Below, one piece after another: positions 9,101 through 41,023 of a stretch of DNA of 64,000 bases (position 1 is the stretch's first letter; each line of letters begins with the position of its first letter). The translations under genes were made by a program, and so were the position numbers. The DNA is taken from the NCBI GenBank assembly GCA_914767715.1, contig OU612066.1, positions 10,295,001 to 10,359,000 on the forward strand. Direction: 5' to 3'. The stretch comes from Membranipora membranacea (taxonomy: Eukaryota > Bryozoa > Gymnolaemata > Cheilostomatida > Membraniporidae). A model generated the notes under the pieces. That model had not been told where the DNA came from, made no database searches, and worked only from the letters and a program-made list of their open reading frames with translations.

Positions 9101-10653
9101 CTCAGCATATCTTGCTTGTATATGCTGATTTTAATGGGGTTTTCATCACTTTACATTCAAAATGTGAATGTTCAATGTATTTACCTGCAAGGTATATGTT
9201 CTTTGCAATATAGCCCATACCTCCATGTTTTTAGATTGATCAATGATGGGTTCTGCATAGAGATTCCAGGATTTATAGAGTGAAAAATTAACATTTTAAT
9301 GACTTTTCTCTGGATTATCTTTGAGGTTTAAGCATTGTATATCTGAAAATGATGGCACCTCAACTGTCAATGAGCATCTTCTCTATAGTCCCATGTCTCA
9401 GTTTAGTGAAATAAACCATCAGTTATGAGAATATTTGGTGTCAACACCATGGCCATTAGGCCTCATCACTAAGCATATTCACAGAATTGCGGTTATTTTC
9501 TAGTGAGTCAGTGTATTCAGTGTAACCCACCCCTTATTGCTACCAAAGAACTTGGGCTATCATGGAGTTATGTTTCCAATTTATTTGAACCAACTGCACA
9601 CACCTCAATTGGTCATGTGACTGCAGTTGTTCTTCCTGGAGGTTTAGTTCATTGCTGAGATGAATGACAACAAACACCAATTCTCTTGTAATTGTTTTTT
9701 AATTTTGTTAACTATACCCTGCTTAAGCGGCTTCTAGGAGAAAGAACAAGCCCAACTTTCTATGATAAAATAGGCCTATACAAACCCAACATTATCAGTC
9801 TCCACTTCAAGACTTCTGATTCGAGACCATGTTTCTTGAGAATAAGATCAGAGGATTCTACCTATCCTGATCACACTCGTTTCGGCTAGACCCAATTGCT
9901 ATTACCATCAACATGCAACAATGAAATACTGGTATTTTCTGCTGACCTATTTTAAAAAGCATGCAAAGAAAAGATTTTGTTAAATTTTCCTCCTTACTTT
10001 CGACAATAACCGCATGATAGCTTTGACGTTTGCACCTTTTCATTATTTTGGTTTCTCGATACACCACTTGTTGTCTAAATATAAGGACCATATTATTACC
10101 TCGCAACTTATTCTCTACTTTTAGTGTGCCAAGTCTCAGGGCCAAGTTTTCCTGTTCAAGGGGACCTTTGGTCCAAAACCTAAAATTAAGCTTTAATAAC
10201 CCACATCTTACCCTACAATTGCTTTTTGAAATTTTAAAGTAGGCCTATGTACAAGTCCTCTACTTGTGACTCTGATTACCCTGAACATTCCACTTAATCA
10301 CTCAATTGGCGGTTAATAATAGTGGTATACCCCCCTAGTGCTATGATCCTTGTATAAGCTCCCTTGTATAGCTATTTAGAGTTTGTGTTTCGTAACCCTT
10401 TTTCTGATGTTGTAGGACTATGCGAACTTTGATAACCCCATATACAACAAAAATAATGGTGGAAATGGACCTGCTAATATTGACCATGATACAGTCAGCG
10501 TCTCCACAACAGGAACCAACAGATCTAGTGCCTTATTCTTCAGTGATTTAAAGGGAGATAACAGCAAGAAGAAATGGCTGATTATAGGTGGCGCCATCAT
10601 CTTAGCAGCAGTGGTCATCATAATAGTAGCTGCTGCAGTGGGGGCTACAGCAG
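6155..10653 (+). other. Receptor part 1: cytoplasmic tail and transmembrane helix
   Basis: Exons 6155-6208, 8334-8480 and 10416-10653. The first exon starts with ATG and encodes [18 protein letters not shown]. The tail carries NNPTYGF (about residues 24-30) and NFDNPIYN (about 71-78). The second matches the FxNPxY internalisation signal of the LDL receptor. A KKKW stretch precedes a 26-residue hydrophobic segment rich in Ile, Ala and Val. There is no N-terminal signal peptide and the basic residues lie on the N-terminal side, which predicts type II orientation. Introns 6209-8333 and 8481-10415 are long and show no coding content. Confidence 0.85.
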
Positions 10654-13600: not shown

Positions 13601-16600
13601 TATTCCAGATGGACTGCTACCTGCATGAATGCAGGAAGATTTGAATATTGTTTGTTTTGCCCTCTAATTAGTGATTCGCCCAGTTTTTTATGATGATGTG
13701 ATATGTGGTTCTAATGGATCTATTTGTTTCCAGACAATCTTGTGGCAATCCCGTCATTGAGGAATGTCGATCTGTGCTCTCTTACTCAACATCAAGGCGT
13801 CCACTCGAGGCTCAGAACGCTATGAAAGACCTTCTTCTCAGAACTGCCAACAGAACCATGAGTTGTTATGAAGATTCCAAGTTCTACATGTGCTCTTATA
13901 TTGCACCACACTGCTACGGAAAAGGCACAGTGCAAGAGTTCTTACTGCCATGCAAACAAAGCTGTGAAGGTTTGTTTTGAGATAAACGCCTCGATCAATT
14001 TTTGAATTTTAATTTGCAGGTAACCAAGTTTTTAGCTGGAGATTTATTCATGTTAGCACCTCCCAACATAGTGCGTGTGTCGTCGGAGGGCTCGACTGTG
14101 TGACCTGGTGTCACAACCTGTAATTTTATGAATTTATAAATAATTTGCATCCTACACTACCTAATTTTGTTTTGTAATAGTTCCTAGCGTGATTGTGCGC
14201 CAGCAACCAACAATGTTGGGTGGCTCTAAAATTCATTGACTGTCTGGATTTGATGAATCGGATATGAACTAGGATGGGAAATTTTTAACCATTGTTTTGT
14301 CAAAAGGCATGTAATAATGCTTCCCTGTTCAATATCATTTACTTATTGGCAATCATAATGATGGTGGTGTGATGAATATAATTTTGAATCCTTCTGCAGA
14401 CTATAACCGTCAGTGTAAAGAGGCTTTGGAAGATGTACCTGATAAGACAGCACTTGAGTGTCTGCCGCTGCCGTCATACGTGACAGAAGTAAACAGATGT
14501 GCATATAGAGGCACTCCACCTACACCTGAAGTAGCTGTTACTCCAAAACCGGACAGTAAGCCTTTAGTAACTGCATCATTCAGTCAAATAACATAGGGAG
14601 TGTAGATACACCAACTGCTATCCTATGTCGGATGCTTAGGTTGACTACTATGTACACCACTGGTAATAAGTGGTCGGAGGGGGAGGGGAGGCCGGTGCTG
14701 TAAGATTTCAATAAGATAGCTATACTTCTATACTTTAAACTAAAAAAATTATGTCAATAAAGAAGCTTAATTGCATCTTGAGTGCCAAATAGCCAAACTT
14801 TCTCTAGCTAATGTAGATTTCTCCTCGAAAGTAACTGCAATATTTAATGATGCATGATGTTCTCTTGTCTGTTTTAGTTGGACGAGCTGAGCTTTGTTAT
14901 CCAATTCACCACAGCTATTGCTCGAACATCCCATGGCATTCTGCTTTCCTACCAAACTACAGAAATCACACCACTGTGGTCAGTATATTATGCTCTATAT
15001 ATCTATATGATCTCGTTCTCCCTTTCCAGCTCGTAATAACGTAATAACTTTTATTTACTCTCACAGTATCCTTGAACCTATTTTTTTTCAATAACCTCAA
15101 ATTTTCAATTGATAACTATGGTACTATTTGTCAAGGATAGAGCTGTGATGCAGGGAGTTTAATTGATTTTGTTACCCTTTTTGTGAATTCAGAAAGATAC
15201 GAACGTTGTAACTGTTGATTCGTTATTATTTTGTTTACTATTACAGTCCGAGGCATACGAGTACCTGAGTTTTGTGCAAGCTCTGACTGACAGTGGACTA
15301 CGCTGCCATGACAATCTACATGCTCTGATGTGTGGAACTCTACTACCTAAATGTGATGCAAACTTTAACAGAATCCCTCCATGCAAATCTTTCTGTCTAG
15401 GTAAAAATAAGTGATCTTTGAGATGAAACCCAGGCTACGTATGCAAGCTTGTACCTAGTTGGTTCTTTATGATCTCCCATTTATCCCTTGTATTTATCTC
15501 TGCGTAATTTTGCCTGAAATAGGTGAAGCCAATGGACCCAACAAGGATAACGGAGTTCAAACATTAGATTTTCTGCTGATAATATGGCTCCATTAAGGTA
15601 AACCACACGAACATGAAGTTGCTATAATTGATTGATCTATTTCTATTCACAGAGGTGGTTGCCAACTGTTCTGTGATGCTCGGTAATCTTCCAGTTAATA
15701 TCCCGATAGACTGTGATATGTTCCACAGAGATTTCAACTGTACAACTGCGGGACCGCCTACAGTAATCTCTCGTAAGTAATACATCGGTTTTACCGATGA
15801 TTTGTAGGCCAGCGGATTACTTGCATTTTTTACACTGCGGTTTTGGAGATTAATTCTGATGCAGAAATAACATAATTGGAAGATTTAAAGACAGAGGATC
15901 ATAAATAAAAAACAGATTACAAAACAAACAGAATATACTTATAATATTCATTGGGTTCACGGCTGAGGACATTTGAATCAACCACCATTTTTAAGATTGT
16001 GATCAACAATTCCTGATCAATAGATCCCTATCTTGGTTCATTTGGTGTGTTGCAGAAATTTTTCTAGTCTGCCATGCCGTAATTATATTTATGTCCTGGT
16101 AGGCAAGTTTACCGTGATGTATTTGTAAACCCTTAATTATCGCAATTAAGTTTTTAATACTACTGTTTAAAGAATGTTGTGGTAAAACAAATTGCTGGTG
16201 TTCAGGCTCTTGTCTTTGCCTGTAGACAAACATCTCGTCTCTGAGGCTTATCTGATTGATATTGTGGACTTCGCTCTTTACTGGTGACGCAACACCTCCT
16301 CTTAACAGTTCTACTTTCAACTAAGAGATGTTACGTGATTTGACTAGACTATGTAATGTCCACCTGAGTCCCGGCTGCCCTGTAACTTCCCATTGGCCAT
16401 TGGCATTATTTATGATCCATCCCTCAGCCACGTAGTAATAACCCACCCTTTTCTTGCAGCATGTGATGAGGATGTGCAGTATACTTGTATGGACCACCAG
16501 CAGTGTATACCTCGTGGTGACCGATGTAACGGATTCCCCAACTGCAATGATGGCTCTGATGAACATGGATGCGGTATGTGCTTTTATTTTTGCATGATAG

Positions 16601-22600: not shown

Positions 22601-25600
22601 AAATAATAATAAATGAGAATGCGGTTTTGAGATTAAAAGTTGTTTTTGTTGTAGTTGAGAACCTCCCGGAGATTTCCTGTTTTACTCCCATCACTATAGA
22701 AGCATGTAAAGCCCCGCTAGCTCCCTACCATAACTTTACCATCTCATCACCAAACAGTCAGGCTACAGTATCTCAAGAAATCACTGTAAGTATACCGATA
22801 GACGAGACCCTCTAAATTGGTCGGTGACCAGAAGAGGGGCCATCAATGACCTCCATTTTCTTTAATGCCCTATTATGTTTGGATATTATTTATTATTATT
22901 ACAATAATTGCCTGATTTGCATTTCTATGCAAGGTGCACAGCAGCGATAAGCCAGATAAACCACCACCAGATTGGGGCTTAACTTTACTGAAGCTGTGCA
23001 ATGCTCTGCAACAATAGTTTATACCATACTACGATGGAGGAACCAAAGGTCATGGTTTCTACTGTTCAGAGAGATGATTGTACCATTTATCTCTCTCATC
23101 AATCTTTACCTCTTTCAGGAGGTTAACCTTGTTTGTGACCAGTATCATAGCTGGTTGGTTTCCTCACCATTACTCATTGCTTTCTCTGGATCCACACAAA
23201 ACAATACTCCCACTCCCTTTTCTTTTTGCGAACGTTAAATGCTTTGACTTGTGATGATATAATAACCGATACATTCATTTATTTTGGATGACAATGACGA
23301 TTCCTTTCACTGTGTAGAGTGGATCTAGTCTTATTTGGCCTTAGAAGAAAAATGAGCATTTTCTTACCTATCAACCGCTAATGGTCTTTAATTAATTGGA
23401 AACAGCTTGCCAACATTGGCGATGAAGAAATTAAGTGCTAGGGATTATAACCATGATCTGATAAGCTAACCACACTAGCTTTTTTTTACATGTGGTTGGG
23501 AACATTCTAGTAAACAGTTTTTTTAATCATGTGATGCAAGACCAGGGAAGTTTACCTCTCACTCGTGTTTTTGCTTTTTGCGTGAAAACTATCCAGTCAC
23601 ACTTTTCCTGTGTTTACCTGTGCCCGCCCGCCCCTCTATAATCACGTTATTACAGAGTGGGACAAGCATTTCCTTGTTTCCCAGCCACCACAGCTTGGTG
23701 ACAGGATGTGATGACTGTCCAGCCCCAAATTATCATAACTCATTTAGCACCAGGGGCTATCTTTTTTTCATTCTGCAGACGTCATTTTGATAAGTCCTTT
23801 GTGACGGGCTAAAGCTCAAAACATGACGATACGGCCACCTTTTCTATTATCGTTTGCCAAGAAATCCATTACCACTGGTCAGTCTCTGAATTCATCAAAT
23901 CAACACCTTTTTTTGCCATGCTAACCTGAGGCTGATTTTCTAAGATATGTTCTGTTTGCTTTGATACCTAGAAAATTGAAGCTAATTTTTTCGATTTTTT
24001 ACAGCTGGGAATACAGAAATTCAGTGAATGTTATGAGCATGCAGCCGAGTTCTTGTGCAGTTATTCGTTGCCCCAGTGTGGTCAGCTATCATTCCCAGAG
24101 TTCCCATGTAAGAGTATGTGCCGCGAGTTCAGGGCCCGCTGTGCCCACAAGCTCAACGAATCTGAGGCTATCGACAGGCTTATTGAGTGCGACACTCTTG
24201 CTGATGACCATTTGAACCCTAATGCAGGATGTTTCAAGCTGGATCACACAACACCCACCATAGCTCCCCCTACAAATGGTGAGCATACTTGAACTTTGAT
24301 CGCTCAGTATGATTTGTTGTTACTCTGTGTGATTGAACTTGAGTGTCCATCGTCTTGAGTATTATAGATGGCCTCCCTCAACTGTTTGTTCATCAACATT
24401 TCAAAAAGCATTCAATTTATTAGTCTACTGCTGTTGAAAGGATGAATGACGCAGCAATATTTTTTTTGTTATCATCTTGATTTAAGTTTTTGTTTTATTG
24501 TTATTTTTAGACTCCAGCTTAGGTTGTCGAGATCTGAAAATCAACTACTGTGACGGTATTGGATACACCAAAACATTCTATCCCAACTTCTTCAATCAGA
24601 CGACCCAGGTAAGTGACAAACCACTATATAATAATAGATCTTAATGATCTTATTGAAGCAGTCACTGTCCAAAGTTGTACTAGGAGAGGTCATGTTGTTG
24701 TTAGCTGCAGTTGTTGTGACATAGCTTTTTTTCTTGCTTTGGAAGACTCCACAATTCCACACTGGGTATAATAATAACTATTCTGGTATTAAATGGTGAA
24801 CCTTTTTTAACTCTGATATATGTACAATAGAAATTGATATGGTGCTTCTCTTATTTGAATGGACATGCAACTCAATTTTAAAAAAACAAACCCACTTCAA
24901 ACAGAATTTGTAACCTTTGCTTGGTAACTTTGACATGAGCTAGGAATGCATCCCGTTGTTTAATGGCTTCTATAACCTGATATTTATAGCCGGACAGTGT
25001 TTGTATAGTTGCCTATCTTGTTTCATTAGGGTGAGGCAGAATGGCTAATGGATCAGATCGAGCATGCACACAGCAGTATGCCAAACTGTAACCCATATCT
25101 CAAACATTTCGGCTGCTCTATTGTTGCACCAAAGTGTAACGCTAACGAGACTGCTAGAGTTCCACCATGTAGAGAACTCTGCCATGGTGAGTTAGTCCTA
25201 TAAGTATATCGGAAGCACAATGCATTGTCTTTTAAACCATTTGGTTGTACGTACGCTATTCTAGGTTTTACATTCAAGTTATCCAAAGTATTATGATGAG
25301 AAGACAACCTTAAAAAATAAGCTCATGATTATGCTGCATTATGCTTTAATCAAAGAGTTGCACCTCTTGCTCCATAATCAGTTCGAAAACTCTTTCTATA
25401 CAAGCATGTTCATGGAGTTTTCGCTCATCGCTTACAATCAACAAAATAAAGGAGGTGTTCATTCTACCGCAATATTACAATAATATCATGTCATTTTCTT
25501 TTTAGCTGTACAGTTTGATTGCGGATATTGGATGGACTACATGCAATGGAGATTCCCTTTTGTTTGTGATGATTTCCCACTAGCTAACTCTACAACAGAG

Positions 25601-28600
25601 TGTGTCCCTCTACCAGCTCCTGAACCATTCGAAGGTGAGAGGTTCACTTCACTTGGTTATGCTTAAATTACTGCAGCCACTCAGGCATAATTGTGCTCAT
25701 CGCATCCTGTATAGCTGCAAGATAACTCATTGAGGCTTTAATCTCAGAATTGTCATCTAATGATAATAATAATATTGCTGTCTGTCAGGGTTGACAATGA
25801 CTAGCACTGATGACGTCAATATTGTTCTCAAGTAACGGTAACTGCCTCACAATGTACGCTAGATAATAAATTTCATACCCTGATTTTGACGATCGGTTTG
25901 TGCAAATTATTTGCCCTTTAGGTGACAATGCTGAGATTGCAGCCTCATTTTGTAGTTTTGAGCTTGTTCTGTTAGCTGCAGTTGTATTCTTCATGCAGGG
26001 TTTTATTTATATAACTTGTTTTTTTTTGTTGACAGGTTGTTATGGCGACCAGTTTCAGTGTGGTAGTGGAGAGTGTCTACACAAGAGACTACAGTGTGAT
26101 GATTATGTGGACTGTGACGATGGAAGCGATGAAAATGTGGATATGTGCGGTAAGTGGGGCTGAATCAAAATCTAGTCAATCTCTTACTAATCTTTCTGAG
26201 AAATCCTAGATAAACACCTCAATATTTAGGGGAGTTTCACTCCCATTTTGTGATATCATGCTGGTGATTCGATATTGAATATGTTTATGTGTAGACTCAA
26301 CTCTTACGCCTTTGCAGTGACGATGAAAATTTGGATCCACTCATCAATGTGTTGGTGCTGATTGGTTGGATGGAGGAGTGTGTTGGCTCCCTTCTCCACC
26401 TGACCAATCAGAGTCAACACAATGTTTCGATCCACTCCTCCAACCAGATAAAATATTAATTTATGAAGGCAAAACATTTTTTGTCTCTAAGATAAAGCAT
26501 TACACTGTTGACAGTGTGAAGACCCAAGTTCCTCTTTTAACTGTTTGGTCACCCTTTCTTATTACAGCTACCTATCGAGAGGAAAACCCCACAACCACTA
26601 TGCCTCCTTTCGACTTCTTTCAACACATTTTCGGTGGAAAATAAGCATTCCATATATCACCTAGTCAATATCATGAACTCTAGTTTCACCTCATACTTTT
26701 TCTCATCCCGAGTTTAGTAACATCACTAGTCTACTGTATCAAAAATAGATCATGTTGTACCCTTACTGCCACTTATATTATTAGTAATGTCGATATTGGG
26801 CAAGACCTATCTCTCTCTCTCTCCATAGTCATATTGTATACTATCCTAAGATGGGAGCCAGCAGTGCGGCCCGCTACTGTTTCATAAACTAAACCATAAT
26901 ATACATATTCTATAATTTTCCTTGGCATTCATTCATAGTATGTAATACTGCTCAAGTTAGTGGTTGTAATAATTGGATGGTTAATTTGGGGCTTGTTCTT
27001 CAAACTGATATACGGTGCTACATTGCTCTTTTTTTGCACGCAATGGCGCCGAATTATATAATAAAAATCTCTATTAGGATATTTGATGACTCAATGTTTA
27101 TTTTCACTAGAAATCATAATATGAAATGAAAACTTTATACATTTATTTTTTTTGTATACTTCATTGTAAGAACAGAAAAAGGTGTTCTGTAAAGCGAAAT
27201 AAAAATCTAAAAAGCAAGCCAACTACCATTGCATATCCTCCTTCCATATCAATCTCAGTAAGCGTTTGTCACCTCTTCGATCGATCAAAATGAGTAATGG
27301 TTCTTCTACACTGAGTAAGTATGATCTAGCCTGCTTATACTATCCAGCTCGCAATTATCTCTCCTGCCTATGTCTACCCATGCCTGTTCTCCATGTGGTC
27401 CCAGGAGCTTGCTCTTCCATGTCACAAATCTAACTAATTCTTCTGAACTCCCCTCTGTCCGCGTTTTGTATAGATATATATGTGCCTATGGTGATGGAGC
27501 TCTTTTTTAGGAAACTTGTCTGTTATGATTTTGCTTGTCTTCCCTATTCATGACAGAGAGGATAGCAGTCAATGCTTCCAGATCTCATCTGGTGCTAGCA
27601 ACTAGTTTATTGGAGCTAGTACAGGTAGATTGTATTAAAATTAATGTTTGATCAAATGCTTGTATGTTGCTTTGCTTATGATTATTATAGCTGCTATTGG
27701 CTGCTCGCTCTCAGAGTTTGACTGCGGTAATGGTGTATGTATCCCCTTATCGTGGAGATGTGACACAGACAATGACTGTAGCGCAGACGGACCTTCAATT
27801 GACGAGCAAAACTGTAAGGGTACATCCTCGACATTTAATTTTATGTAATCCTGTTAAGTGTTAATTTAGGTAACAGTGAGCCGCAGTGTCACTTTCTTCT
27901 CTAGGTTTAATGTCCACTATATTGGCCTCGCTTGCCACAAAATGGCCTACTCACCCTGTTACTCCCTGCTAGTCATTATATGGAACGAATAAAGATGACG
28001 AGTAGGCGAAGATAAGCCGATTAGAGGGATTAGCTCAAGTGGATTAGTGTATTACAATCCAGATCCCTTGTATCATTAATGGTGCAGTGTCATTTTTCTT
28101 TGAATCTCAAATGAGAGATGAAATCACTGGATGAGAATCAGACCGTAATATTCAAACTATATATGGAAAGGATCTTACCGTTGTCTTGTTTTTTGGGGTG
28201 CCTACTGCCTAGTCACCTGTTTTTCAATTAAGTTTTTGAGCTGGGCAATAGCTTGGAATATGTTTTCAAACAGCTGATAAATAGAAAATTGAAATGAAAA
28301 TACAGGTATCACTGTTGTGAAAAGAGAACACAAGATCACTAGTTTCGGGATGAGCAAGAGTTGGCTGCTTTCCAATTCTGAATGCTTATCACTATAATTA
28401 GTGATCTTCGGTATAAGTAGGGTGGGGAGGGGGTCTTTCAGCTAGGTTGAGCAATACTTTATGGGCAAAATTATTGCTATCACTTCACTCAAAATCATTG
28501 CTCACTTGGTCATTCAAGACTAATTGCTTCACAAATCATTCACTCAGAATGTATATAGTTGTCCATAGTTCCAAAAAGGAGTGAGCGATTTGCAAAGTGA

Positions 28601-31600
28601 TCATGCTCACTGAGCTAGAAGCAATCAGATAACAATTTTGGCAGCTTAAAGACCCCTTGATTGGTAGAATATTGCTTATGAGCTTTATACCTTCCTTTGA
28701 CGTCGCTCCTATGTAAGTTTCTTTATTCTGAGCCTTTGATGTATTTCCCACTTGTAGGTATCTGCACTGAGAACCAGTATAAATGTGATGATGGTGCTGG
28801 ATGTTATTCCCAGGTAATTATCTATATCAAGTTAAGTTGGCATCTGATGTTGCAATGAGCTCCAATAATCCAGACATAATCATGAAAAGGCCAGATAAGT
28901 TATTATACTCAATCAGGGTTATGGAGTTTCCCTCCCTTCAACAAAGAGAAATCAACTCCTGATACAGGTAACACGAAGCAGCATTGCACAGTCTTAATAT
29001 ACAACAGCATTTACAGATGATACACATATGATCAATGAGGCGTTTAAAAAAATGTTTGACGCTCTAATCTGGTATCAGAAACATCATACTCCCCACCTAC
29101 TACATCAATGAAATCCTAGATCAAGTTTGATCCAGTTTGCCTCCATTCGAGTTGGCTCCCCTTACACCAATTGGTTGGGGGGGGGGGGGTGAGAGCTATT
29201 CCAGATACAGGAAAACCGGATCATACATGGTCTTATGATATCCTGGCTTACAAAACCAGTTTACTATATACCACATATCACATTACTTATAGTTGTATCG
29301 CTGTGATGGGTTCGATGATTGTAATGATGCCTCCGATGAGTCTGATCAGTACTGTAAGAACGTTACGTACTGTGATGGAGACATGTTCTATACATGTGCT
29401 AACGGTGACTGTATCCTGCTATCCTGGCATTGTGACGGCTTCCCAGACTGCGCTGATGACTCAGACGAGATAGATTGTGAATGTAAGCTCCTTGATCTAA
29501 ACTTGAATTGCTTTATTAATGTGCTTGAAAACCAGATTGTTGACATATTGCGAGCCAATGAATACATATAAACCTGGATATAAGTCACTAGGACCTAAAC
29601 TCTCACCAGAATAAATATGGAAAATATATATAACTTGTTTGGCCATTTAGCTGTTGGCGGGAGAGAGGGAGAAGCACCCCCACCAACAAAGGATATAGGA
29701 TATGAACTGAGCCTATCTTGGCAAATTTGTTTGATATGGTTGTTTCCCCCACTCCCACCAACAAAGCTCGACGAGACAGGCTACTTTGAACTGTGATATA
29801 ATGTGTTGTGTCTGCAGATTGCGATGGCAGTGACACTCTTTGTCTGAATGGTACTAACAAGTACTCTGGTACTAACTGTGTACCCCTTAACTGGGTGTGT
29901 GATGAGGAGGCAGACTGTACCGATGGAAGTGATGAGGTAAGTGCAAGCAGATGGTTTGAAAATGAAAGCTTTTTTTGTGCCAAGTAATCTACTCAACCAA
30001 TGCACAGTTTTGAAGCCCCAAACATAAATACCCAATTCTTCTCTCAAACATGTGTACCAAGTTTGTATGTTTGATTTAGTTCTAGATTAAGACTGTATCT
30101 GGTGCTTTAGTGAGATCCATGCCTTGGTTTCATTGCTCATTCATTCAATCTTACTCTCAGGAAAACATAATAATATGATGACTGATATTTTGATGGTTGA
30201 TGTGTTGTAGTTGGGATGTTTCCCCTGTCAGAGTAACCCTTGTATGCACGGTGGACTTTGTATCGAGGCTGAGAGTAACACGACCTTCACCTGTGAATGT
30301 CCAGATCTGACTAGTGGTGACCGCTGTGAAGACTGTAAGTGAGATAGCCTAAAGCTGCGTTTACATTGTCAACTAATCTGCCTATTTGAACAACACCGAC
30401 ATTCAACACCGATAACTCTTCTAATGTAAACATTGTGTCGTGCAGACTAATCGGAGTTTAATGAAATCGTTGCTCTGTGATCATGTCACAGCATGAACGA
30501 CACAGGGTCCGATTCCATTGATACATAGCCAATTAAAACACAGATATTACTAGCTGTAGCTATTGTACAGGGGTAATATTGTCGCAAAATGGTAGCTGAA
30601 TGGTCAATATAGTTGCTTGATTGATAGATTAGGGTAGAGTTATTAGACTGACAAATCTAGTGTAAAAGCAAAATCGTTATAACCTATATTACACCGACAT
30701 TTACTGCCGACAGTTATGGTATGTCGGTGTTGTTCAATTATGCAGATTAGTTGACAATGTAAACGCACCTTTAGGAGTACTTGGAATGTTTTCAGTGCTG
30801 ATACAATGTTCTCATGAAATCTTTTGAAAACACAGCTTTTTACCTGCCCTGCGACTTGACTTGACAGTGACTTGTTAATGGCAACCATGGGGTTTTTCTC
30901 ATATATATGAATAAACATGTTATTATTGTCGGCTTGTTGAATTTCCAGAGATGTTTAGTTTTAAAAAAAAACCTTGGATGTACACACAATAATAAAAATA
31001 TCTTCAACTAAATGTATTTCAGACTCAAATGTATTGAATGCCCTTGGTCGACAGTGCTGAATTTGGTATATATAAGTCGGTCTAAGCAATATAATATTCC
31101 CTTTCATGTAAGATAATCTTTTGAGGTACCATGTTTCTTTTTACAGATGTTGGTCTGACAGCAGTTCAGTGTGATCAGCCTATAGCTAGTGAAAGCTGCC
31201 GTAGTAGACTTGCCCCACATTACACACAGTCACGCATGCCTGTGATTATGCAGTCATTACTTGGTAATGTTTTCAATGCTGATGTGCTGCTTCGACTTGA
31301 TCAGTGCTCTAATGGAGAGGGAGGCTTGTTCGTGTGTAGTTCTACCATTGCTGGCTGTCAAGATAATGGATTACCCATAATGCCTTGCAAACACCTGTGT
31401 CAGAGTGAGTACAGATTTCTCATTACACACATTGAAAACATCGTCTTAATAATTACTAGCCTAAATGCACTCAATTTTCAGATGGGAGCATACCGGCAGG
31501 AAAAATCTCAGACAGTGGATCTTTTTACATGCAGAACTTGGGTCATCTATTCATTAAACGATGGACATGACATTTGCAACTCTATCCACTTTCCTTTATT

Positions 31601-34600
31601 TCATTACAGGATTCACACGCAATTGTGCTGATATTATCGCACAGCTTGGTTATGAGTTTGACTGCGATATTTACCCTGATAAGTCGATCTATCCTAACGC
31701 TGTGTGTATCAGCTCACCATCAGACACAACTACACCACCACCCTCAGCTCCTGTCGGTCAGCCACAGTGTCAGGTGCTCAAACAGGACTACTGCTCCTGG
31801 GAGGGAGACAGAACTGTTATACCTAATCTTATTGGTCAGAATTCTCAGGTAACCCTTTATACTTAGGCTCATTTCTTTGCTTTTTTATGGAACTATATGT
31901 TCATACATTGTAGTTGGAACAGGTTCAATTAAGTAGGCTCTGGAAGCGATATATATATATAATATATATATTTCTGTTGCTCACAACAGTTTTGGCTAAT
32001 ATAATTTTCTCTATACTCAGTCGTTGAGGGCACAAGCAACTGACTCTTGGGCTGATTGACAGCAAATCTACTCTACTCTTATTGATGGCGATGCTGGATA
32101 TTTTCCCCATGACCTTCAAAAACCAGAAATGACATGACAGTATCAACATGTCTCCTGGAAACTATTGCTCCATTATAAGTATTTTAGTTTCATAGCCCTC
32201 AAGTGCATAATTTGTTATATGATTCACAGGCAGAGGCAAGCATTTACCTGGACATCATAGCCAGAATAAACTCTACATATCCCGTATGTCATGAAGCTTT
32301 ACAGATGTACTCATGCTCGGTGCTAGCTCCACCATGTCATAATGATACTCACTCAAAACTACCCTGTAAATCATGTAAGTATGTAAAAGTGCTCAGTAAA
32401 ACACAAAATGATCTATGAATCGTCTCCCACTGATTTGAGGTGTCCATTAGAATTCAATTTGTGCAGTTCTTGTTCGCAATAATATCCAAATAACTAAATT
32501 ATTATGTTGAAAATCTGAACATGAATAGCTGAAAGAACGAAATTTTGACATTACCTTTAATCTGGAATTTGCCTTTTGAAATGACATGTTATGATAATTC
32601 ACTGATAATACTCTCTGTCGGCTGATGCCAGGTATTCCATTTCTTGAGCGCACTGATGCCCTATTCGAATTTTCAGTCATAGAAAAGGACAAATTATGTG
32701 AGACTTTGGAGTTTTTAACTTTTCTGTCTCCAAATTGTTCACCTAGGTCCAATCATGATTTTACCAATTGAAAGTGTTATCTCGCTGTTCTGTTAGCATC
32801 AAAAGTGTTTTCTAGCATATATAACATAACCTCGCTCATAAGCACATGTGGTTATAATAAATATAGATAAGATAGATAAATACAGGCCATCCAAGTGTAG
32901 AACAACCAAAAGACTAAATACCTTTTTTGAATTTTATATGCGATTTTTCAACTAATGTGGCTCAAACTCCTTTTATTTTACTTTTCCCATCTATGTGCTG
33001 TACATTCGATGCTATCAACCTATCACAGGATGGATATTAGAATTTATGTAATAAACGAACTTCAAACTTCAATATATTGTCATGTTCCTTCTGTTTGTTT
33101 TTGCAGTATGTGAGGAGGTGATGGAGAAATGTACATATGATCTGAACCTGCTTCAGATCCCTCTACAGATGGATTGTAAAACATTACCTGAGTATAACCA
33201 TCAGACGGAGAACTGTGTCGCCCACCATTCAGTGCTGCCACGTAAGTATTCATAGGCCAGATTGCACTGCAACCGTCAACATTTTCTAGCTCATCCTAAT
33301 ATTTACTTACTCATTATTTGCATCTATATAAAGAAAGTAGCCAAGGGTCCCTGGCTAATAGATCGAAACCCTCATACCATGTTTGGATTCCTCAATAGCC
33401 TTGTATGAATTGCTGAATTTTGCCCATTTTTGCCAATGTATTATCAAGCAAACTAAACCTGATAGATGTGGACTTAAGGCTAACAGTAACAACATTTGTC
33501 CATGCTTTGCATTTGGCAAATTTTGTCTTCTAGCCCCAACTGCAGGACCTCCTAGCACCACAGCCTCATCAGGTGAACCAAATTTTGCCTTCTTTTTGTT
33601 GTCCGCTTTTCTATCGCTCAACTTGTCACACATCTTTTCAACAGCAAACTTGACTTATTACAATGAGAATAACCCCTCCGTCCGCCGCTCTCTCTTTGTC
33701 TATGACTATATGTGTCTATCGCTTGTATGTATCTAAGGTCCTGGGATATGATCAGATCTGATTGGGATTGGAAGAAAATTTTAACCATTTTTGGCCTTAT
33801 TGGAATACTATGATACTCATGATCTGCCTTTTGAACTGTCACGGAATATAAAAAGTAAACTCGATTGCTCACTGGAGCCTAATAAATATCACTCAAACTG
33901 CTGTATCAATTCTATCTGGGCATCTCAACCCCTAGTCTGCAGGAAGTCGGTATGGTCTGCTCTGATTAATATGCCGGTTTATATTTATTTAGCCACTAAA
34001 AAAACACCATCATCCTCTACCCCTCTATGTCTATTTTATTTGCTCCTTTCTTGGACCTTATCAAATACTTAGCTCCTGCTCCACGCCCTTTTCTTTCATT
34101 GTAATTCTTCACAAAATGCTGATGACTGGAAAAATCCGATCGACCAATATATCTCTGCCAAAGAATCAACAAAGGGCACTACCCCATAAATTAACCGCGC
34201 GTGTTGAAAGCTACATACATACATACATACATCATAAAGCACAGACATCCTCACCACGGACATCTGGACGACTGTAGTTCACCCACACTTTATCTGTAAT
34301 AAGTAATTTTTCCCCCTTCTCGTTTGCCTCTCATAACATCACTGTGTTGTATTTTAGCCTGTCGAGATGATCAGTTCTCGTGCAGCCCCGGAGCTTGTAT
34401 ACCAATCTCTCAGCGCTGTGATCAGGTCCCACATTGTTCCGATGCCTCAGATGAGATGGACTGTCCCGAGTCTTCATGTCGCAGCGATCAGTACCACTGT
34501 AAGGCTAGCGGAGAATGTATACCTCACTGGTGGAAATGTGACGGATTCACAGACTGCTTAGGCGGAGACGATGAAGCTGATTGTGCTACTGGTATGCTTT

Positions 34601-37600
34601 TACAAGACATTTGATATCTCTTAAAATTGTGATCTACTTGGATTCAGGGCTCAACAAATTCGGACAAATCTTACACTGATGTCTTGCTCAGTGCTCATGA
34701 TAATTAGGCTGCCCTCAAACAACTGTTTTCATAATTTTTTGTGTAATTCATATTAAAAGTAACTTATGTGCTTCATCAGCCATTGTCATAACACCAATCC
34801 AAAACTCAGGTTCAGAGAGAATCATAATATTAGCCCTTATTTCACGCTGGACTGCTCCCTGACCTAAAAAAGGGTCATCTAATAACTCCAATTTTTATTT
34901 TTACAGTATGTAATATTCAGAGAAGAGAGTTTGCATGTAATGATAACTCCACCTGTCTACATGCCTCTAAGAGATGTGATTATGTCAGTGACTGTCCAAA
35001 TAACGATGATGAGGAAGGTGAGGATCATTTTTGAGGCTTTTAAATTAAAATAAATTAAAATTTGTAAAACAATTGTGTCAAATTCTTGAATACTCCGCCA
35101 TCACGCTCAGAGCTTTTGAACAGTTCTCAAGTGGTGGAGATGCGTTCTGTCTGTTCTGTGTAATGAATTCTACTATACAGACATATGTACCCCATTGTCC
35201 TGATTCTATAAATTCTTGTTGCTGCGATACTAAATACGTTATTTGCGGTTGACATTCAGGTTGTGAGGCCCTGACTTGCCCGAGTGATGAGTTCCGTTGT
35301 AACTCTGGTAGATGTATACCTAACTTGTGGAGATGTGACGGAGCATCAGACTGTCCCGGTACAACTGCTGAGGATGAACGTGATTGTGGTCAGTATTCTC
35401 ATGTAGTTAGATTAGAATCATTAACAGCAAAATCTTTGTTGTCAACTAAACCCGAGCCTTGAAGTTTAATAATTCCACCTCTATGGTCACTCATTGTTCC
35501 GAACAATTTTCTATTACCTGCTTTCGCCACAGAGCTCCTTTTTTTGCTCTGTTGACCCTTTACATTCTCATAACAAATTTTTACGACCAATGCTCATCAA
35601 ATCACCAATCACAAGGGTGGACAGATATCAGGCAGTTACAAAAAAAGACAGGAGGGCACAACTTGACCAATAACATGATATATATACATATATACTATTT
35701 ACATATTTTATTGTCAATCTACAATCATTATTTGATTGTTTTTCATTCAATAATTCCAAATATTATACACACAGTGCTGGTGACTTGTGCTGAGAATCAG
35801 TTCAGATGTACCGGAGGAGGATATAATAAGTTTGCTGCAGATTTCCCCACACCCTGTATCGCTATCTCATGGCAGTGTGACGGAGAGGAGGATTGTACTG
35901 ATGGTACCGATGAAAGTGATTGTAAGTTTGAGTAATTAATTCTGTTATTGAAGTGAATATCTCGGGAATACGAGAAAAATGCTAGAAAATAATGTTAATA
36001 ATCAAGACCAGCCTTGGATGGGTACTTGATAAGCTCAGCTGGATATAAGTATGAAATTCCGATAATAGTTATGGAACACATCGCTTGCAATCTATCTCCC
36101 TGTCATCAAAACAGGCCCACTCACTTAAATATAAAAACTGGTATGTGACTCATTTTTGGCAAAGATTAAACACTTGGGGTGTGAGTGCACGCTCTGTAGC
36201 AATGTCGTTGTGTAATCGTGTTTGGTTTTTATTCTCAGGTGATGATGTGGACCTCAGCGCTTGTAGACCAGACCCATGTGAGAATGGTGGATCATGTGAC
36301 CTTGAGGACGGATCTCCCGTATGCACATGTATGTTCGGATTCTCTGGACGATACTGTCAAAATAGTAAGTTTTTAATATCACACATACATAGATAGAATG
36401 TATAGGTGTTGCATGTTATTTGAGTTTGTAGTTACTGTACACATTCATTTTTGTTTCTCTTCATTACTTAAATAATATGATGCAAGTGTCAAGTTGCAAG
36501 AACATATTCAAAATAATCAAAAACTGGAACGTGAGAAACTTGAATACCAAGAAATTATTGGACATTGCCATTAGACACATCTATATTATGACCATAGAAC
36601 ATAGTTCTAGGCTATATAGTTGTAGTATCAGCGTAGCTTGTAGATAGTTTCATTCGAAAATACTGATGCAATTTCTAGCACAGGGTGTTTGTGTTACAGG
36701 CATTACATCAACCACTACTGTGTCGAGTCCCAGTACAGTGTCTAGTACAATTTTGCCAATCAGTAGTACCACAAAACAGCCCCAAAAACCATATTTCCCC
36801 AAATGGACCACTGAGTCATATCATCAAGCAGAATCAAAACTGACCTCTAGCAAAATTGTGTCTAGCACTGCCACTGTGGCTCCGACAAGTAGCTCGACAA
36901 AAAGAGCCAGGCTTACCACAGTAAAACCCCGTAGACATCAAAGTTTGTAATGGCGCCTGTCTGTCCTGACTTGTTTGTTATAATTTCACCCGTTAAGCAT
37001 GACAAACTGCACCAGTTTTTTATCCGAATTCTAAACCCTTAACAAAAAACTGCATGCAATCTAATGCTTCGATTGGACTGATACATCAAAACTTAAACCC
37101 CTAGTGGTCACTGGGGCACTTGACCCCTGAAGCAGCACAACCTTCAGTGGGCCTGTGTTGCCCAGGTCCTATTTGAAAGTCTACTATAAGGTGGCTCAAG
37201 AAATCAATTGTATAACCTGTGCTGTGCAATGTCATGTATTCTTTATTTGTAAACTTTTGCAGAGGATTTGCCAGCCTATAATTGCTCGATACCTCTCAAT
37301 TCTACAAGCACCTGTCACCACTACTTACCGTATGACATGACGTCCACAGCTCCACACATACAGATGCTGCTGAATGCCAGCACAGAGAACCTGTTATCAG
37401 CTCTCAGCACGAGCCAATGTTATAACATGTCACAAATGTTTGTATGCGCTACAAGATATCCAACATGTCAGCAGAATGGATTCCCTCTACTACCTTGTCG
37501 CCATGTCTGTGAATGTGAGTGTGTATCCTATTACTTAGGAGGTGATGCACATCATCCAATTATCCATATGCAATATGTATCAAATACCTTATACCATATG

Positions 37601-40600
37601 CCGTATGCCGTATGTGATATACCATATATGCCATATAGAATACACCACAGACAATATATCACATACCATACACCCTATAGCCTGTGCCTTGTACCATATA
37701 CAATAAACCATATACCATATACCATTTATGATATACAATATACCATTCACCGTTTACCATATACAATATAACATATAACATTAGTATATATCACACCATA
37801 CCATGTCTTCAAGTGATGGTATCTGTGGATTATCACCCAGTAATTTTTGATATGTCCTGAGATTATCGTATATTCTCTTACAGTATTTAAGACTCACTGT
37901 GGACATGTTCTGACACTAGGAGGACACACCGATCTACTCAATCTGACATGCGATCATTTCGTCACTCGATCCAGCTCCACCTTTAACTGTCTGTCTGAGA
38001 ATGCTATGCCTGCTCCAAAACCAGGTAAGCATTGCTTTTATAAAACCAGGTTTTTTGTCGGTCATCTTGCTTATTTTATTTGTCTTGACATAGACAATGA
38101 TGAGCCCCAGTGTTGCTCCTTTTGTCTGTTGGTTTTGTGGTATGTTATATCCAGTGGAGCCTTACAGCATTTGCAGGTTTTGTCCCGGCTCATTTGTATA
38201 ATCTTGGTAATGTTATCCTGTGTCATCTCTCTTACCCATCTTTAAATATAGCTGTTCTTTTCAGATACAACCCCAGCAGCACCAACTTGCCAGAATCTTA
38301 CCAATCCTATTTGCTCGGCGCTGAACTATACATCAGTAGCGCTGCCTAACCACTTCGGCCAGACGTCACAATCTGAGGCAGGTTATCTTATTAATATGCT
38401 CAGCACTCTGGACTCGACAGACGTCTGTAGGGAGATAATGTTATCTGTGGGATGTGCTCTTACTTACCCTAACTGTACAGAGAGCGGAGCTGCACTTCCT
38501 CCCTGCCGACAGGGATGTCGAGGTTTGTGATGAACCCACTAAATTTAATTCTTCTCATGGAACATAAATATGGAAAACAGTTGGAACACTCAAACAGGAA
38601 CTGATCTGACATTGATCTGATTGGCTGATTGGCATGAATAATATAGCCTGATAAATAGTCTCGTTCACAAAATTGCAAACATAATTAATTGCCTTCTGCG
38701 TTGATGATTTCGGCATTGCTAGAATTCTACTAGGGACAGGCTATTTTTACAAGCACTATGTTTGTCTAAAGAAAGCCAATTATGCTATTCTTGATATGGA
38801 GGTCGAGGGGTCACACTCCTCATAAAATATGTGCTAGCTCTGTTCAGACGGAGAACGTGTTAATATAATTTCAGTTGGTCAGAAATAGCTGCTATATGAT
38901 GAACTATAGTAATGAACTCGGTTTTCTTTGTTGTAGATTTGATTCAGAAGTGCAGTTTCTTCTTGGATCACTATAACTTTAACTTACCTGTGGATTGTGA
39001 GACTTTCCCTGACTCCACTGATCCAGAGGTCTGCTTCCAGAAACCAGATATAGTACCTACATCACCTCAATGTAAGTGTCGGTGATGGCTCAATCAGAAG
39101 GCATTGAAATGTTTGCCTATGCGAACAGGCTATGAAACTTTGAACCTGAGCAATTGGCCAAGTATATTTGTACTTTCTTTCTAGTACTCCATGTACGGTG
39201 TTATGTTGTCTCATATTGATCATCCCTTATAATTTCATGTAAAAAACCATTTCAAAAATGAATTTCATATTACAGTTTGTGAATATGGATATAAGAAGTG
39301 TGTTACATCTGGAGAATGTATAGAATCTGATCAGTGGTGTAACACTGAGGTCAACTGTCTTGACGCCTCCGACGAGGAACATTGTGGTATGTATTCAACT
39401 TAGGAGCTTAATAATTACTAACATCATACATAGTTCAGATTTTTGATTTAGTCATTTATCCATTGCTGCTAGTAGTAAAAGCACTGTTTCTGTGGATAAA
39501 CCCTCAGCATCTCATGTCTTCTGGAACAACATCAAACATGCTTCAAATTTTCGAGTTGGTGATGAAACTCAACTATTTGCTTTTAGTAAGCACTACTTGG
39601 TAGTAGCTGCTTGATTGTTCAGTCAATTAGACGTGTGACAATCTTGCATATCTGCGACCCTCACCTGGATTCGCTATCCGTGCAACATAATTGCCTATCC
39701 CTGCCAGTTATCATATTCATTATCAATATCAGGAATGCCATTTTTATTTTCTGATCTATTTCTGACAGAGATAGCAGAGTGTACTACTGGTACGCTGAAG
39801 TGTAACGGCTCTTATACTCAGTGTATACCACCTAACTGGCGCTGTGACGGATTCCCTGATTGTGAAACTGGCTCAGATGAGCATCACTGCTTCATAGAGG
39901 TATGGAGATGTCACATAACTTCTCATTCTTGTAATACTGCATGAAGTATATCACTGGGTCCTATTCGAAGCCTCCCACTTCACTTTTATTACCTCATGAC
40001 TTGTTGGTGAATAACCTACAACACAACTTTCATTGAATTCTTGGGACTATTTTATTGAAGATCCTGAGGTCTCCCTGGCTATCCTGGGAATCCCAGGTTA
40101 CAGTTGCATTGTGGGAAGGATACCCTAGCAAAAATGTTTTTTCGATATGGGCATATTGAGAAATATACCTTTGTATCTTGAACTGACTGATCCTACTAAA
40201 CTGAAAGAACCTAAGCAGTAAATTGTCGCTCACATGATAAATTTACTCATTCCGTTTTAAACAAGTTCCTAATCTAAAATATTTGTTTGAATTTTTAGGC
40301 TGACTGTCAGGGAAATATGTTTGCATGTCCTCCAACCATAACTACTGCTGGACACTGTATACCAACACAATGGGTAAGTAGTAGTAATTGCAGTTTTCCT
40401 CTTAAACGGAGGCCATTAGGTAGGGGGTTGTCCTCTGTTTCAATGTATCTCTTAGCCTGTCCTGACAAGCTTTATTTGGTGGGTGTGGGTGTTGGTGGGA
40501 ACAATGCTTATCAACTCTTGCGACCAAGCTCTCCCCACCCACCAAACAAAGGTTGTCAAGACAAGCTATGATTTCTGATTAATGATACTAATTCGAATCG

Positions 40601-41023
40601 ATGAATGTCTTTATAGTCAGAAATCTGACGAACCTGTGAAGACTCTCCTTTTGCTTTTAACCTTGTTGTGAGGGAGTAAACCTGATTGGTGATACATAAA
40701 TACCGACTGATGAACAAACATCTGGAAAATTTATATGTTCATGTATACTTTACACACCAAATGAAGATTAGTTCTGCAGTGATGATATTCACTCATATTT
40801 GACGTTTTATTTATAGAAATGTGATGGTATGGAGGACTGTAATGGAGGGTCCCTCGCTGATGAGATAGACTGTGATTGTGACTCCCAGGATGAGTTTAAA
40901 TGTAACGACGGATCTAACCGCTGTATATCGACTGCGTGGGTGTGTGATCAGTTCCCTGACTGTGACAACGGATCGGATGAGGCAAATTGCCCTGACACAA
41001 CCACATGGAATTTCCTCGGCTAA
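6155..41023 (+). CDS. Giant type II membrane receptor, SEA-[Fz2-LDLa5-EGF]n, corin-like without protease
   Basis: Main model of 47 exons (coordinates under the five parts below), 6,771 nt including the stop, about 2,256 aa. Order: cytoplasmic tail with NPTY and FDNPIY motifs (1-120), transmembrane helix (about 121-146) preceded by KKK, SEA domain (about 165-273), Thr-rich linker, then four blocks of two Frizzled CRDs followed by LDLa modules, with an EGF module closing blocks 1-3. Totals are 8 Fz, 19 LDLa and 3 EGF. Most extracellular introns are phase 1, as expected for shuffled modules. Fz plus LDLa in a type II protein resembles corin, but no SRCR or trypsin-like domain follows; the frame ends NFLG-stop at 41023. 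Role inferred: cell-surface receptor for lipid-modified or lipoprotein ligands, endocytosed through its NPxY motifs and perhaps shed at the SEA domain. No gene symbol is justified. The exon chain is well supported; whether every exon is in one transcript is not proven. Confidence 0.85.
11375..13314 (+). other. Receptor part 2: SEA domain and Thr-rich linker
   Basis: Exons 11375-11529, 11769-11842, 12339-12490 (SEA) and 13254-13314 (linker). The SEA domain runs from about residue 165 to 273 and includes [18 protein letters not shown], then [15 protein letters not shown]. The GSIIV at about 225-229 corresponds to the GSVVV autoproteolysis site of mucin-type SEA domains, with cleavage expected between Gly225 and Ser226. 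The 20-residue linker is rich in Thr, Pro and Ala and probably O-glycosylated. A SEA domain just outside the membrane is typical of type II serine proteases such as matriptase and enteropeptidase, and of membrane mucins. Confidence 0.8.
12517..12815. mobile_element. Palindromic MITE-like element in an intron
   Basis: About 300 bp. The left end (12517 on) and the right end (up to 12815) are imperfect inverted repeats extending some 45-50 bp, starting AAGG and sharing CCCACGAAAT plus a nearby CAATTCCAC. The interior has no coding potential. It sits in the intron between the last SEA exon and the linker exon. TAA-like bases on both sides may be a target duplication, but this is uncertain. Confidence 0.6.
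18579..18634. repeat. Perfect 24-bp inverted repeat
   Basis: Arms 18579-18602 and 18611-18634 are exact reverse complements, separated by an 8-nt loop. The arm begins CTGTGTTGACAAG. It lies in the intron between LDLa1 and LDLa2 exons, about 90 bp before the LDLa2 acceptor. The perfect pairing implies recent origin or selection for the fold. Confidence 0.85.
20348..20408 (+). repeat. 31-bp tandem duplication spanning a splice acceptor
   Basis: Two near-identical units begin ATGTGATATGTTGT at 20348 and 20379. The second contains TTGGACAG, the acceptor used by the exon starting at 20405. The first has TTGGACGG at the same place and so cannot act as an acceptor. Confidence 0.75.
21303..21346. 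repeat. Perfect 16-bp inverted repeat
   Basis: Arms CACAGAGTAAGGATAT (21303-21318) and its exact complement (21331-21346), with a 12-nt loop. Located in the intron that splits EGF1. Confidence 0.8.
21735..21829. repeat. 95-bp foldback element
   Basis: Two 31-bp arms, 21735-21765 and 21799-21829, pair with two mismatches; both contain GTTGCTCCCGAT or its complement. The loop is 33 nt. It sits in the same intron as the hairpin at 21303-21346. Confidence 0.8.
26346..26423. repeat. Short hairpin of the CTGATTGGT family, copy in receptor gene
   Basis: Arms about 26346-26366 and 26403-26423 are imperfect inverted repeats sharing CTGATTGGT/ACCAATCAG and TGTGTTG/CAACACA. Related hairpins occur at 57420-57490 and 58398-58465. 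Confidence 0.65.
26568..26644 (+). CDS. Alternative terminal exon A of the receptor gene
   Basis: After the donor at 26149 the next acceptor (TTACAG before 26568) opens a phase 1 exon in the correct frame. It encodes a 25-residue tail that includes [12 protein letters not shown] and ends at TAA (26642-26644). AATAAA signals lie at 27060-27065 and 27198-27203. If used, the protein would stop after LDLa6 at about 1,120 aa. The competing acceptor at 27691 continues into LDLa7. Whether this exon is expressed cannot be decided from sequence. Confidence 0.5.
28428..28657. mobile_element. MITE-like element, copy 2 of the family at 758-1001
   Basis: About 230 bp with imperfect terminal inverted repeats (AGGGGGTCTTTCA at the left, complement TTAAAGACCCCTT at the right). 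The internal order is the same as in copy 1, with ACTTGGTC, TCACTCAGA and a TATATAGTT-type segment. It is clearly more diverged than copy 1, and lies in the intron before LDLa8. Confidence 0.6.
29742..29783. repeat. Half-copy of the TAGCCTGTC hairpin family
   Basis: Reverse complement reads TAGCCTGTCTCGTCGAGC then TTTGTTGGTGGGAGTGGG. It matches the left arm of the complete hairpin at 40453-40568 at most positions. A partial opposite arm (CCCCCACCAACAAAGG) lies near 29677. Confidence 0.5.
30348..30775. mobile_element. Non-autonomous DNA transposon with ~54-bp inverted repeats
   Basis: About 428 bp. The left end (30348-30402) and right end (about 30721-30775) are near-identical inverted repeats; the shared core includes GCGTTTACATTGTCAACTAA and then CTGC and GAACAACACCGACAT. 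No transposase is encoded. It sits in the intron right after the EGF2 exon, only 14 bp past the donor site. Confidence 0.8.
31147..36364 (+). other. Receptor block 3: Fz5-Fz6-LDLa11-15-EGF3
   Basis: Exons 31147-31404 and 31610-31848 (Fz5, and start of Fz6); 32230-32374 and 33107-33241 (rest of Fz6); 33534-33572 (39-nt Pro/Thr/Ser linker miniexon, phase 1 in and out, skippable); 34358-34591 (LDLa11 and LDLa12 in one exon); 34907-35017 (LDLa13); 35260-35388 (LDLa14); 35775-35921 (LDLa15); 36239-36364 (EGF3). Residues about 1300-1820. Between Fz5 and Fz6 there is a linker with [10 protein letters not shown]. The LDLa modules keep CDGxxDC and acidic boxes, for example [15 protein letters not shown] in LDLa15. 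Confidence 0.85.
34212..34233. repeat. (CATA)n microsatellite
   Basis: Five tandem CATA units with flanking partial repeats, in the intron before the LDLa11-12 exon. Confidence 0.8.
36700..36950 (+). CDS. Alternative terminal exon B of the receptor gene
   Basis: A consensus acceptor (TGTTACAG before 36700) joins in phase 1 to the EGF3 exon and opens an 83-residue Ser/Thr-rich tail, for example [16 protein letters not shown], with a basic end (KPRRHQSL) and TAA at 36948-36950. The EGF3 exon also joins in frame to the next Fz exon at 37263, so this exon is not needed in the full-length form. No strong internal phase 1 donor is visible and no AATAAA lies between 36950 and 37263. The polyadenylation of such an isoform is therefore unexplained. 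Confidence 0.45.
37561..37800. repeat. Degenerate ACCATATAC-type minisatellite
   Basis: A 240-bp run of imperfect units built on ACCATATAC/ACCATATGC in the intron between the two Fz7 exons. An open frame reads from the exon into this repeat past the donor at 37515; that extension is an intron read-through. Confidence 0.75.
40453..40568. repeat. Complete hairpin of the TAGCCTGTC family
   Basis: Arms of about 35 bp at both ends pair imperfectly: TAGCCTGTCCTGACAAGC then TTTATTTGGTGGGTG at the left, and the complement of TAGCTTGTCTTGACAACC then TTTGTTTGGTGGGTG at the right. It lies in the intron inside LDLa18. Confidence 0.75.

Follow-up and report, generated by a model that had tools for sequence, protein, structure and literature searches.

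A Membranipora membranacea gene for a predicted type II receptor with repeated Fz-Fz-LDLa-EGF units

Frizzled cysteine-rich domains (CRDs, here Fz) occur, to our knowledge, once or twice per protein. A locus of the bryozoan Membranipora membranacea, at which eight of them are encoded in pairs together with LDLa and EGF modules, raises the question of how such an ectodomain was built and what kind of protein carries it. The locus lies in a window of 64,000 nucleotides, by which we mean the whole stretch of DNA that was analyzed (C2:10295001-10359000), in a host genome of 339 Mb and 18 contigs. A sequence-only reading of this DNA had described a receptor that grew by duplication of a unit of about 500 residues with the order Fz-Fz-LDLa5-EGF.

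Gene model and domain layout

Exons were modeled with a codon and splice-site scorer trained on clear exons, and some exons were picked by hand. The resulting spliced gene occupies positions 8334-41023 of the (+) strand and comprises 46 exons, which encode 2238 residues with no internal stop. All 45 introns are of the GT..AG type, with 31 in phase 1, 11 in phase 0, and 3 in phase 2. The TAA stop at 41021-41023 is located ten residues beyond the last LDLa cysteine. The features are as follows, with the supporting evidence given in parentheses:

8334..8480, + strand: exon 1, predicted cytoplasmic tail with NNPTYGF, NPxY at residue 7; a soft call (open frame, splice sites, compatible phase)
10416..10653, + strand: exon 2, NFDNPIY, KKK, and a single transmembrane (TM) helix (gene model, Kyte-Doolittle)
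11375..12490, + strand: exons 3-5, SEA domain with EPGSIIV as putative self-cleavage site (Pfam SEA 51.2 bits, E 1.6e-13)
13254..13314, + strand: exon 6, Thr/Pro-rich linker (gene model)
13734..22116, + strand: block 1, exons 7-17, Fz1-Fz2, five LDLa, and EGF, 501 residues (gene model, Pfam)
22655..30334, + strand: block 2, exons 18-28, Fz3-Fz4, five LDLa, and EGF, 505 residues (gene model, Pfam)
31147..36364, + strand: block 3, exons 29-38, Fz5-Fz6, five LDLa, and EGF, 521 residues including the uncertain exon 33 at 33534-33572 (gene model, Pfam)
36700..36942, + strand: possible Thr/Ser-rich (mucin-like) linker exon between EGF3 and Fz7, outside the model (phase 1-1; acceptor 5.2, donor 2.7; whole-frame codon score -17.2)
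37263..41023, + strand: block 4, exons 39-46, Fz7-Fz8 and four LDLa without EGF, TAA stop, 436 residues (gene model, Pfam)

It should be noted that the training set consisted of the same Cys-rich exons that the scorer recovers, and Cys-poor parts such as the tail and the linkers are therefore scored less reliably. The softest exon calls are exons 1, 33, and 5, the last of which has a codon score of -6.6 despite covering the SEA core. The first coding exon and its ATG were not found; an ATG at 8409 inside exon 1 is a possible start and would exclude NNPTY.

The four blocks outlined in the sequence-only reading were recovered at the same spans as exon-bounded units of 501, 505, 521, and 436 residues. 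The protein extends beyond them, with the 5' exons at 8334-13314 encoding the tail, the TM helix, and the SEA domain. As predicted from the spliced sequence, the locus almost certainly holds one gene with the architecture tail-TM-SEA-(Fz-Fz-LDLa5-EGF)x3-(Fz-Fz-LDLa4).

Regarding module content, the eight Fz and the LDLa numbers of 5, 5, 5, and 4 were found as previously listed, as were EGF1 and EGF2, but EGF3 fell below the Pfam cut-off. Scores for Fz1 to Fz8 were 40.5, 62.3, 47.7, 80.4, 32.6, 58.2, 43.8, and 68.6 bits, all above the cut-off of 32.1, and each of the eight contains ten cysteines. The EGF modules of blocks 1, 2, and 3 scored 23.8, 31.4, and 18.4 bits (cut-off, 21.5), and EGF3 fits a loose EGF spacing pattern. 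All 19 LDLa modules have six cysteines. CDxxxDC...DE is present in 15 of them and W-x-C-D-xxx-D-C, the Trp/Asp pair of which has a role in ligand binding by LDL receptors, in 11. The even-numbered Fz retain a PNxxxQxxQxEA-like segment of Frizzled CRDs; Fz3 keeps part of it, and Fz1, Fz5, and Fz7 showed no match. Pfam scans of the gene model detected no protease, SRCR, CUB, or LDLR propeller domain. Sub-threshold Pfam matches to FZ_RECK (Fz6 and Fz8), LDLRAD1_C, and VirB8 were set aside. Among solved chains, the nearest by sequence were Frizzled-8 for the Fz4 part and LRP2, VLDLR, LRP4, and LDLR for the LDLa part of block 1. The Fz3 part gave a weak Smoothened match (E 0.009), the SEA query against the PDB gave weak fibronectin matches and no SEA chain, and the tail query against the PDB gave 0 matches.

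The one TM segment of the model spans residues 104-122, with KKK on its N side and a Kyte-Doolittle value of 3.15 over 19 residues; the highest value past residue 150 was 1.35. Since block 1 comes after the tail, the TM helix, and the SEA domain, and translation ends behind the last LDLa, the protein is predicted to be type II and non-proteolytic. No GDSGGP-like motif was found on either strand of the window, a search that an intron-split motif would escape. As signs of a missed 3' protease, TAAHC-like strings at 27887 (-), 40344 (+), and 42396 (+) were considered and rejected; none is accompanied by a GDSGGP-like motif, and the string at 40344 falls inside an LDLa.

Two NPxY motifs, NNPTY and FDNPIY, lie on the predicted cytoplasmic side. 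NNPTY is the less certain because exon 1 is soft and the first ATG was not found. FDNPIY differs from the FDNPVY of LDLR by a change from Val to Ile. Internalization of the LDL receptor relies on FDNPVY, and FxNPxY motifs are bound by Dab-1 and Dab-2 (PMC4584282). In the SEA domain, EPGSIIV is positioned where cleavage would be expected. Its G-S-hydrophobic site resembles that of self-cleaving SEA proteins, such as GSVVV in MUC1 (PMC4456727), and cleavage is predicted here. For MUC16, the same study did not find cleavage at the predicted SEA site, DSVLV (PMC4456727), and the GSIIV motif is thus no proof of cleavage.

Relationships among the repeated blocks

If whole blocks were copied, Fz1, 3, 5, and 7 should group together, as should Fz2, 4, 6, and 8. 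This expectation from the sequence-only reading was borne out. The odd/even division ranked top among all 35 four-by-four splits, with a score of 126.4 compared with 104.0 for the next-best split, and was also the best of the 8 within-block labelings. The mean global alignment score was 46.8 for adjacent Fz pairs versus 126.4 within classes. Pair scores were 136-169 for even-even (6 pairs), 72-136 for odd-odd (6 pairs), and 26-92 for odd-even comparisons (16 pairs), with three of the six odd-odd scores (72, 72, and 91) below the top between-class value. The block topology was not rejected (p-AU 0.49). Clustering by adjacency, which had been named beforehand as the outcome that would speak against block copying, was not seen: enforcing all four adjacent pairs yielded a topology that was 32.1 log units worse and was rejected (p-AU 0.0028; LG+G4, 120 columns). 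When each adjacent pair was enforced alone under a mixture model, rejection was not reached (p 0.169, 0.122, 0.085, and 0.255).

The mixture-model tree contained 14 rows, namely, the eight Fz, two cousins, three Frizzled-type CRDs of the same genome, and human Frizzled-8. The odd Fz were placed on one side of a branch with a support of 72/79, which was present in 94% of 200 bootstrap trees. In the best tree, the even Fz do not form a clade and require two changes, and enforcing an even clade costs nothing (p-AU 0.51). Most forks of this tree are open, and long branches were flagged by the program. In both classes, the block 1 member stands apart, with scores of 72-91 versus 113-136 for the odd and 136-139 versus 160-169 for the even Fz; in this respect, the two Fz columns agree. 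These comparisons strongly support a reading in which the Fz-Fz-LDLa-EGF unit would have multiplied after its two Fz had diverged.

Similarity is also apparent at the level of entire blocks. Blocks 1-3 align mutually over nearly their entire length, and the alignments with block 4 cover approximately 410-426 of its 436 residues. Identity is 28-32%. The protein alignments had E values of 8e-54 to 7e-88, which are generous for Cys-rich sequence as composition correction was off, and weaker out-of-register matches were obtained too. A blastn comparison of 13001-41100 with itself (plus strand, E 1e-3) revealed no block-to-block DNA match, so the duplications look old.

A cousin gene with the order TM-SEA-Fz-LDLa3-stop was located at approximately C1:7386745-7397998, its exons being joined by eye. 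The SEA domain scored 38.5, the Fz 70.2, and the three LDLa together 76.0 bits (Pfam), and a large exon encodes the TM helix and a cytoplasmic tail different from that of the window protein. The cousin shares with the window protein the order tail-TM-SEA-Fz-LDLa, a long-looped last LDLa, a stop after this module, and an even-type Fz, which scored 142, 139, 132, and 181 to Fz2, 4, 6, and 8 (Fz8 being the closest) and 38-64 to the odd Fz. In contrast to the window protein, it has one Fz, three LDLa, and no EGF. No GDSGGP-like motif was found in the 60 kb surrounding it (C1:7370001-7430000). The cousin supports the gene boundary and indicates that the TM-SEA-Fz-LDLa core exists alone; the difference between the two genes may reflect enlargement of the window gene or reduction of the cousin.

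The LDLa modules bore out block copying in part. The Cys2-Cys3 loop of the fifth LDLa is 13, 11, and 15 residues long in blocks 1, 2, and 3, the loops of the other 16 LDLa in the window measure 4-9 residues, and that of the last LDLa in the cousin measures 17. The order signal, however, was weak: in an exact permutation within blocks 2 and 3, the observed order ranked at 616/14400. Comparison by block pair gave 48/120 (1 versus 2), 2/120 (1 versus 3), and 39/120 (2 versus 3), so that the signal rests on blocks 1 and 3. LDLa 2.3 and 4.4 carried two extra N-terminal residues in the order comparison and were trimmed for the loop comparison. The loop of the last LDLa in block 4 has 6 residues, so that, besides the EGF, this block seems to have no LDLa of the fifth type. 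Fitting block 4 by score instead favored a missing third LDLa (951 versus 816 for a missing fifth).

Module boundaries had been described as mostly phase 1, which would allow whole blocks to be added without breaking the frame. This applies to 31 of the 45 introns, with 14 exceptions. Phase 1 introns lie on both flanks of blocks 2 and 3, but the intron 5' of block 1 is in phase 2. Within Fz, a phase 1 intron is located in the second codon past PCxxxC in six of the eight (Fz1, 2, 4, 5, 7, and 8), three codons earlier in Fz6, and is absent from Fz3. A phase 0 intron just before xEA is shared by Fz2, 4, and 6 and, at the same place, by the Fz of the cousin; it is absent from Fz1, 5, 7, and 8, and Fz3 has one a few codons off. 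In LDLa 2.3 and 4.3, (Y)R/KCDG is immediately preceded by a phase 0 intron, the two positions differing by two codons, and in both cases the next exon also contains the entire following LDLa. The intron pattern is block-like mostly, not wholly.

Growth by block duplication is, on these sequence comparisons, very probably the correct reading. Separate insertions of modules or local duplications of Fz, with no copying of blocks, would be compatible with the weak LDLa order, with single adjacent Fz pairs that the mixture model did not reject, and with intron positions within LDLa that differ between most blocks. This independent shuffling is nevertheless improbable in view of the rejected adjacency topology, the first rank of the odd/even split, the loop insertion at the same LDLa position, and the long co-linear alignment of the blocks. 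It is most improbable that several neighboring genes were read as one: the three block borders are acceptor and donor sites in matching phase 1, the model contains only one strongly hydrophobic segment, and the single-unit cousin has the same TM-SEA-Fz-LDLa order. Under block duplication, eight Fz arranged two by two in a 500-residue repeat would constitute a record of how a mosaic receptor grew by whole-block duplication, a record preserved in the two Fz classes, the position-specific LDLa loop, the phase 1 introns around blocks 2 and 3, and the one-unit cousin.

Comparison with known proteins and possible function

The LDL receptor family (LDLR, VLDLR, and LRP) has a type I orientation and is defined by a YWTD beta-propeller. 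The window protein resembles this family in its clustered LDLa, for which Ca binding is predicted, its EGF modules, and a cytoplasmic FxNPxY. It differs in that it is predicted to be type II, with the TM helix before the whole ectodomain, and contains Fz; Pfam scans detected no YWTD beta-propeller in it. Frizzled receptors have a seven-TM domain, whereas the window protein has one TM helix. Human corin has an N-terminal tail, a TM segment, 2 Fz, 8 LDLR modules, an SR domain, and a protease (PMC7605860). Common to corin and the window protein are a single TM helix near the N terminus, predicted to be N-in, and the combination of Fz and LDLa in one ectodomain. Unlike corin, the window protein shows neither an SRCR nor a C-terminal trypsin domain in Pfam scans, its stop following the last LDLa, and it has a SEA domain, EGF modules, adjacent Fz pairs, and 8 Fz plus 19 LDLa in repeated blocks. 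MFRP is described as a type II protein with 2 CUB, 2 LDLa, and 1 Fz (PMC12036977). The window protein is likewise predicted to be type II, with LDLa and Fz and without a protease, but no CUB was detected by Pfam scans, and it has a SEA domain, Fz placed before LDLa, and many copies of both. As the window protein has some of the defining features of corin, MFRP, and the LDL receptor family but lacks at least one of each, it was assigned to none of them. In its build it is akin to corin and MFRP, and it may work in the manner of LDLR. In the titles and abstract openings of the open-licence PMC literature, we did not find this architecture, including multiple or tandem Frizzled domains, described.

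The overall best explanation, to which we assign a probability of roughly 0.6, is a receptor with a corin/MFRP-like plan that acts in endocytosis or ligand sequestration. That the protein is a receptor, as the sequence-only reading had called it, is likely; for an endocytic function, predicted from sequence, we would put the odds at even. In such a receptor, the SEA domain would self-cleave and the ectodomain would be either kept on a short stub or released. LDLa modules would bind protein ligands in a Ca-dependent manner, and the even Fz, with their PNxxxQxxQxEA-like segment, may bind a lipidated or hydrophobic ligand. Repetition of the unit could provide avidity or ligand range, and the FDNPIY tail could recruit a PTB/clathrin adaptor, leading to ligand uptake. 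No NPxY was found in the tail exon of the cousin, and the uptake signal is thus not seen across the family.

Two other functions were weighed against this receptor. The eight Fz, together with the proximity of Fz4 to Frizzled-8, would also fit a sink for Wnt or another lipidated ligand, in which Fz capture the ligand and SEA cleavage, predicted at a G-S-I site comparable to the MUC1 site cited above (PMC4456727), frees the ectodomain or lets it be exchanged, uptake playing no part. This function appears rather unlikely, as Fz1, 5, and 7 are without the PN...QxEA-like segment and Fz3 has it in part, and it leaves the FDNPIY tail unexplained. Alternatively, the modules could organize apical membrane partners in a non-catalytic scaffold or adhesion protein, with the tail serving in sorting. 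The long repeat build is consistent with such a role, as is the likeness to MFRP, which combines CUB, LDLa, and Fz in a type II protein and is described as an apical membrane hub (PMC12036977). Pfam scans of the model, however, found a SEA domain and no CUB, and we regard a scaffold as unlikely.

Returning to the endocytic or ligand-sequestering receptor, a fuller account can be offered only tentatively, with the odds against it. A corin/MFRP-like type II protein would have become a large, protease-free endocytic receptor with an FDNPxY tail and a multiplied Fz-Fz-LDLa5-EGF capture unit. Uptake of lipoprotein or lipid-modified cargo in the manner of the LDL receptor would thereby have arisen for a second time, with the membrane orientation reversed, and the divergent odd and canonical even Fz would form a bipartite CRD. 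With FDNPxY joined to a protease-free ectodomain that is anchored by SEA and predicted to be type II, convergence on uptake in the style of the LDL receptor could be tested on this protein, which may also represent a Wnt- or lipid-binding receptor of a kind not yet studied.

Related sequences in the genome and neighboring genes

Of the 19 exons matched in an exon-by-exon search of the genome for Fz, which also led to the C1 cousin, 5 lie in the window; this search is insensitive, having missed three of the eight window Fz. No second multi-block gene was found in a TM-SEA search (5 matches, all in the window) or in an Fz8-LDLa search (97 matches). The latter included LDLa-only clusters on C1 (~12.4 and ~22.5 Mb), C2 (~12.6-13.0 Mb), C10 (~8.9 Mb), and C11 (~0.3 Mb). 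At C10:6148001-6198000, both strands carry partial Fz/LDLa copies of the Fz-LDLa3 cousin, one of which contains a stop (L023, L024, L014, L025, and L026). We read these pieces as probable decayed or incomplete copies, which would indicate a small family with decay. Two near-identical Fz exons located about 4 kb apart at C8:26958210-26962428 (L010) probably derive from a recent tandem duplication of another Fz protein. Very similar Frizzled-5/8-type CRDs, named by their likeness to human Frizzled-8, were found at 27.94 Mb on C4 (L001) and 10.26 Mb on C3 (L002).

Within the window, dihydrouridine synthase exons lie upstream on the same strand at 1910-2881 (+) (Pfam Dus 90.8 bits, from an approximate query sequence). 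A rhodopsin-type GPCR-like fragment at 57338-57844 (-) scored 16.3 bits for 7tm_1 (cut-off, 30.5), and an open frame at 62254-62583 (+) matched the KIAA2026 helical domain with 19.7 bits (cut-off, 27.8), both below their cut-offs. Downstream of the gene, exons of a voltage-gated potassium channel occupy 45848-46783 and 49946-50578 (-), with scores of 150.6 bits for Ion_trans and 102.9 bits for BTB_2.
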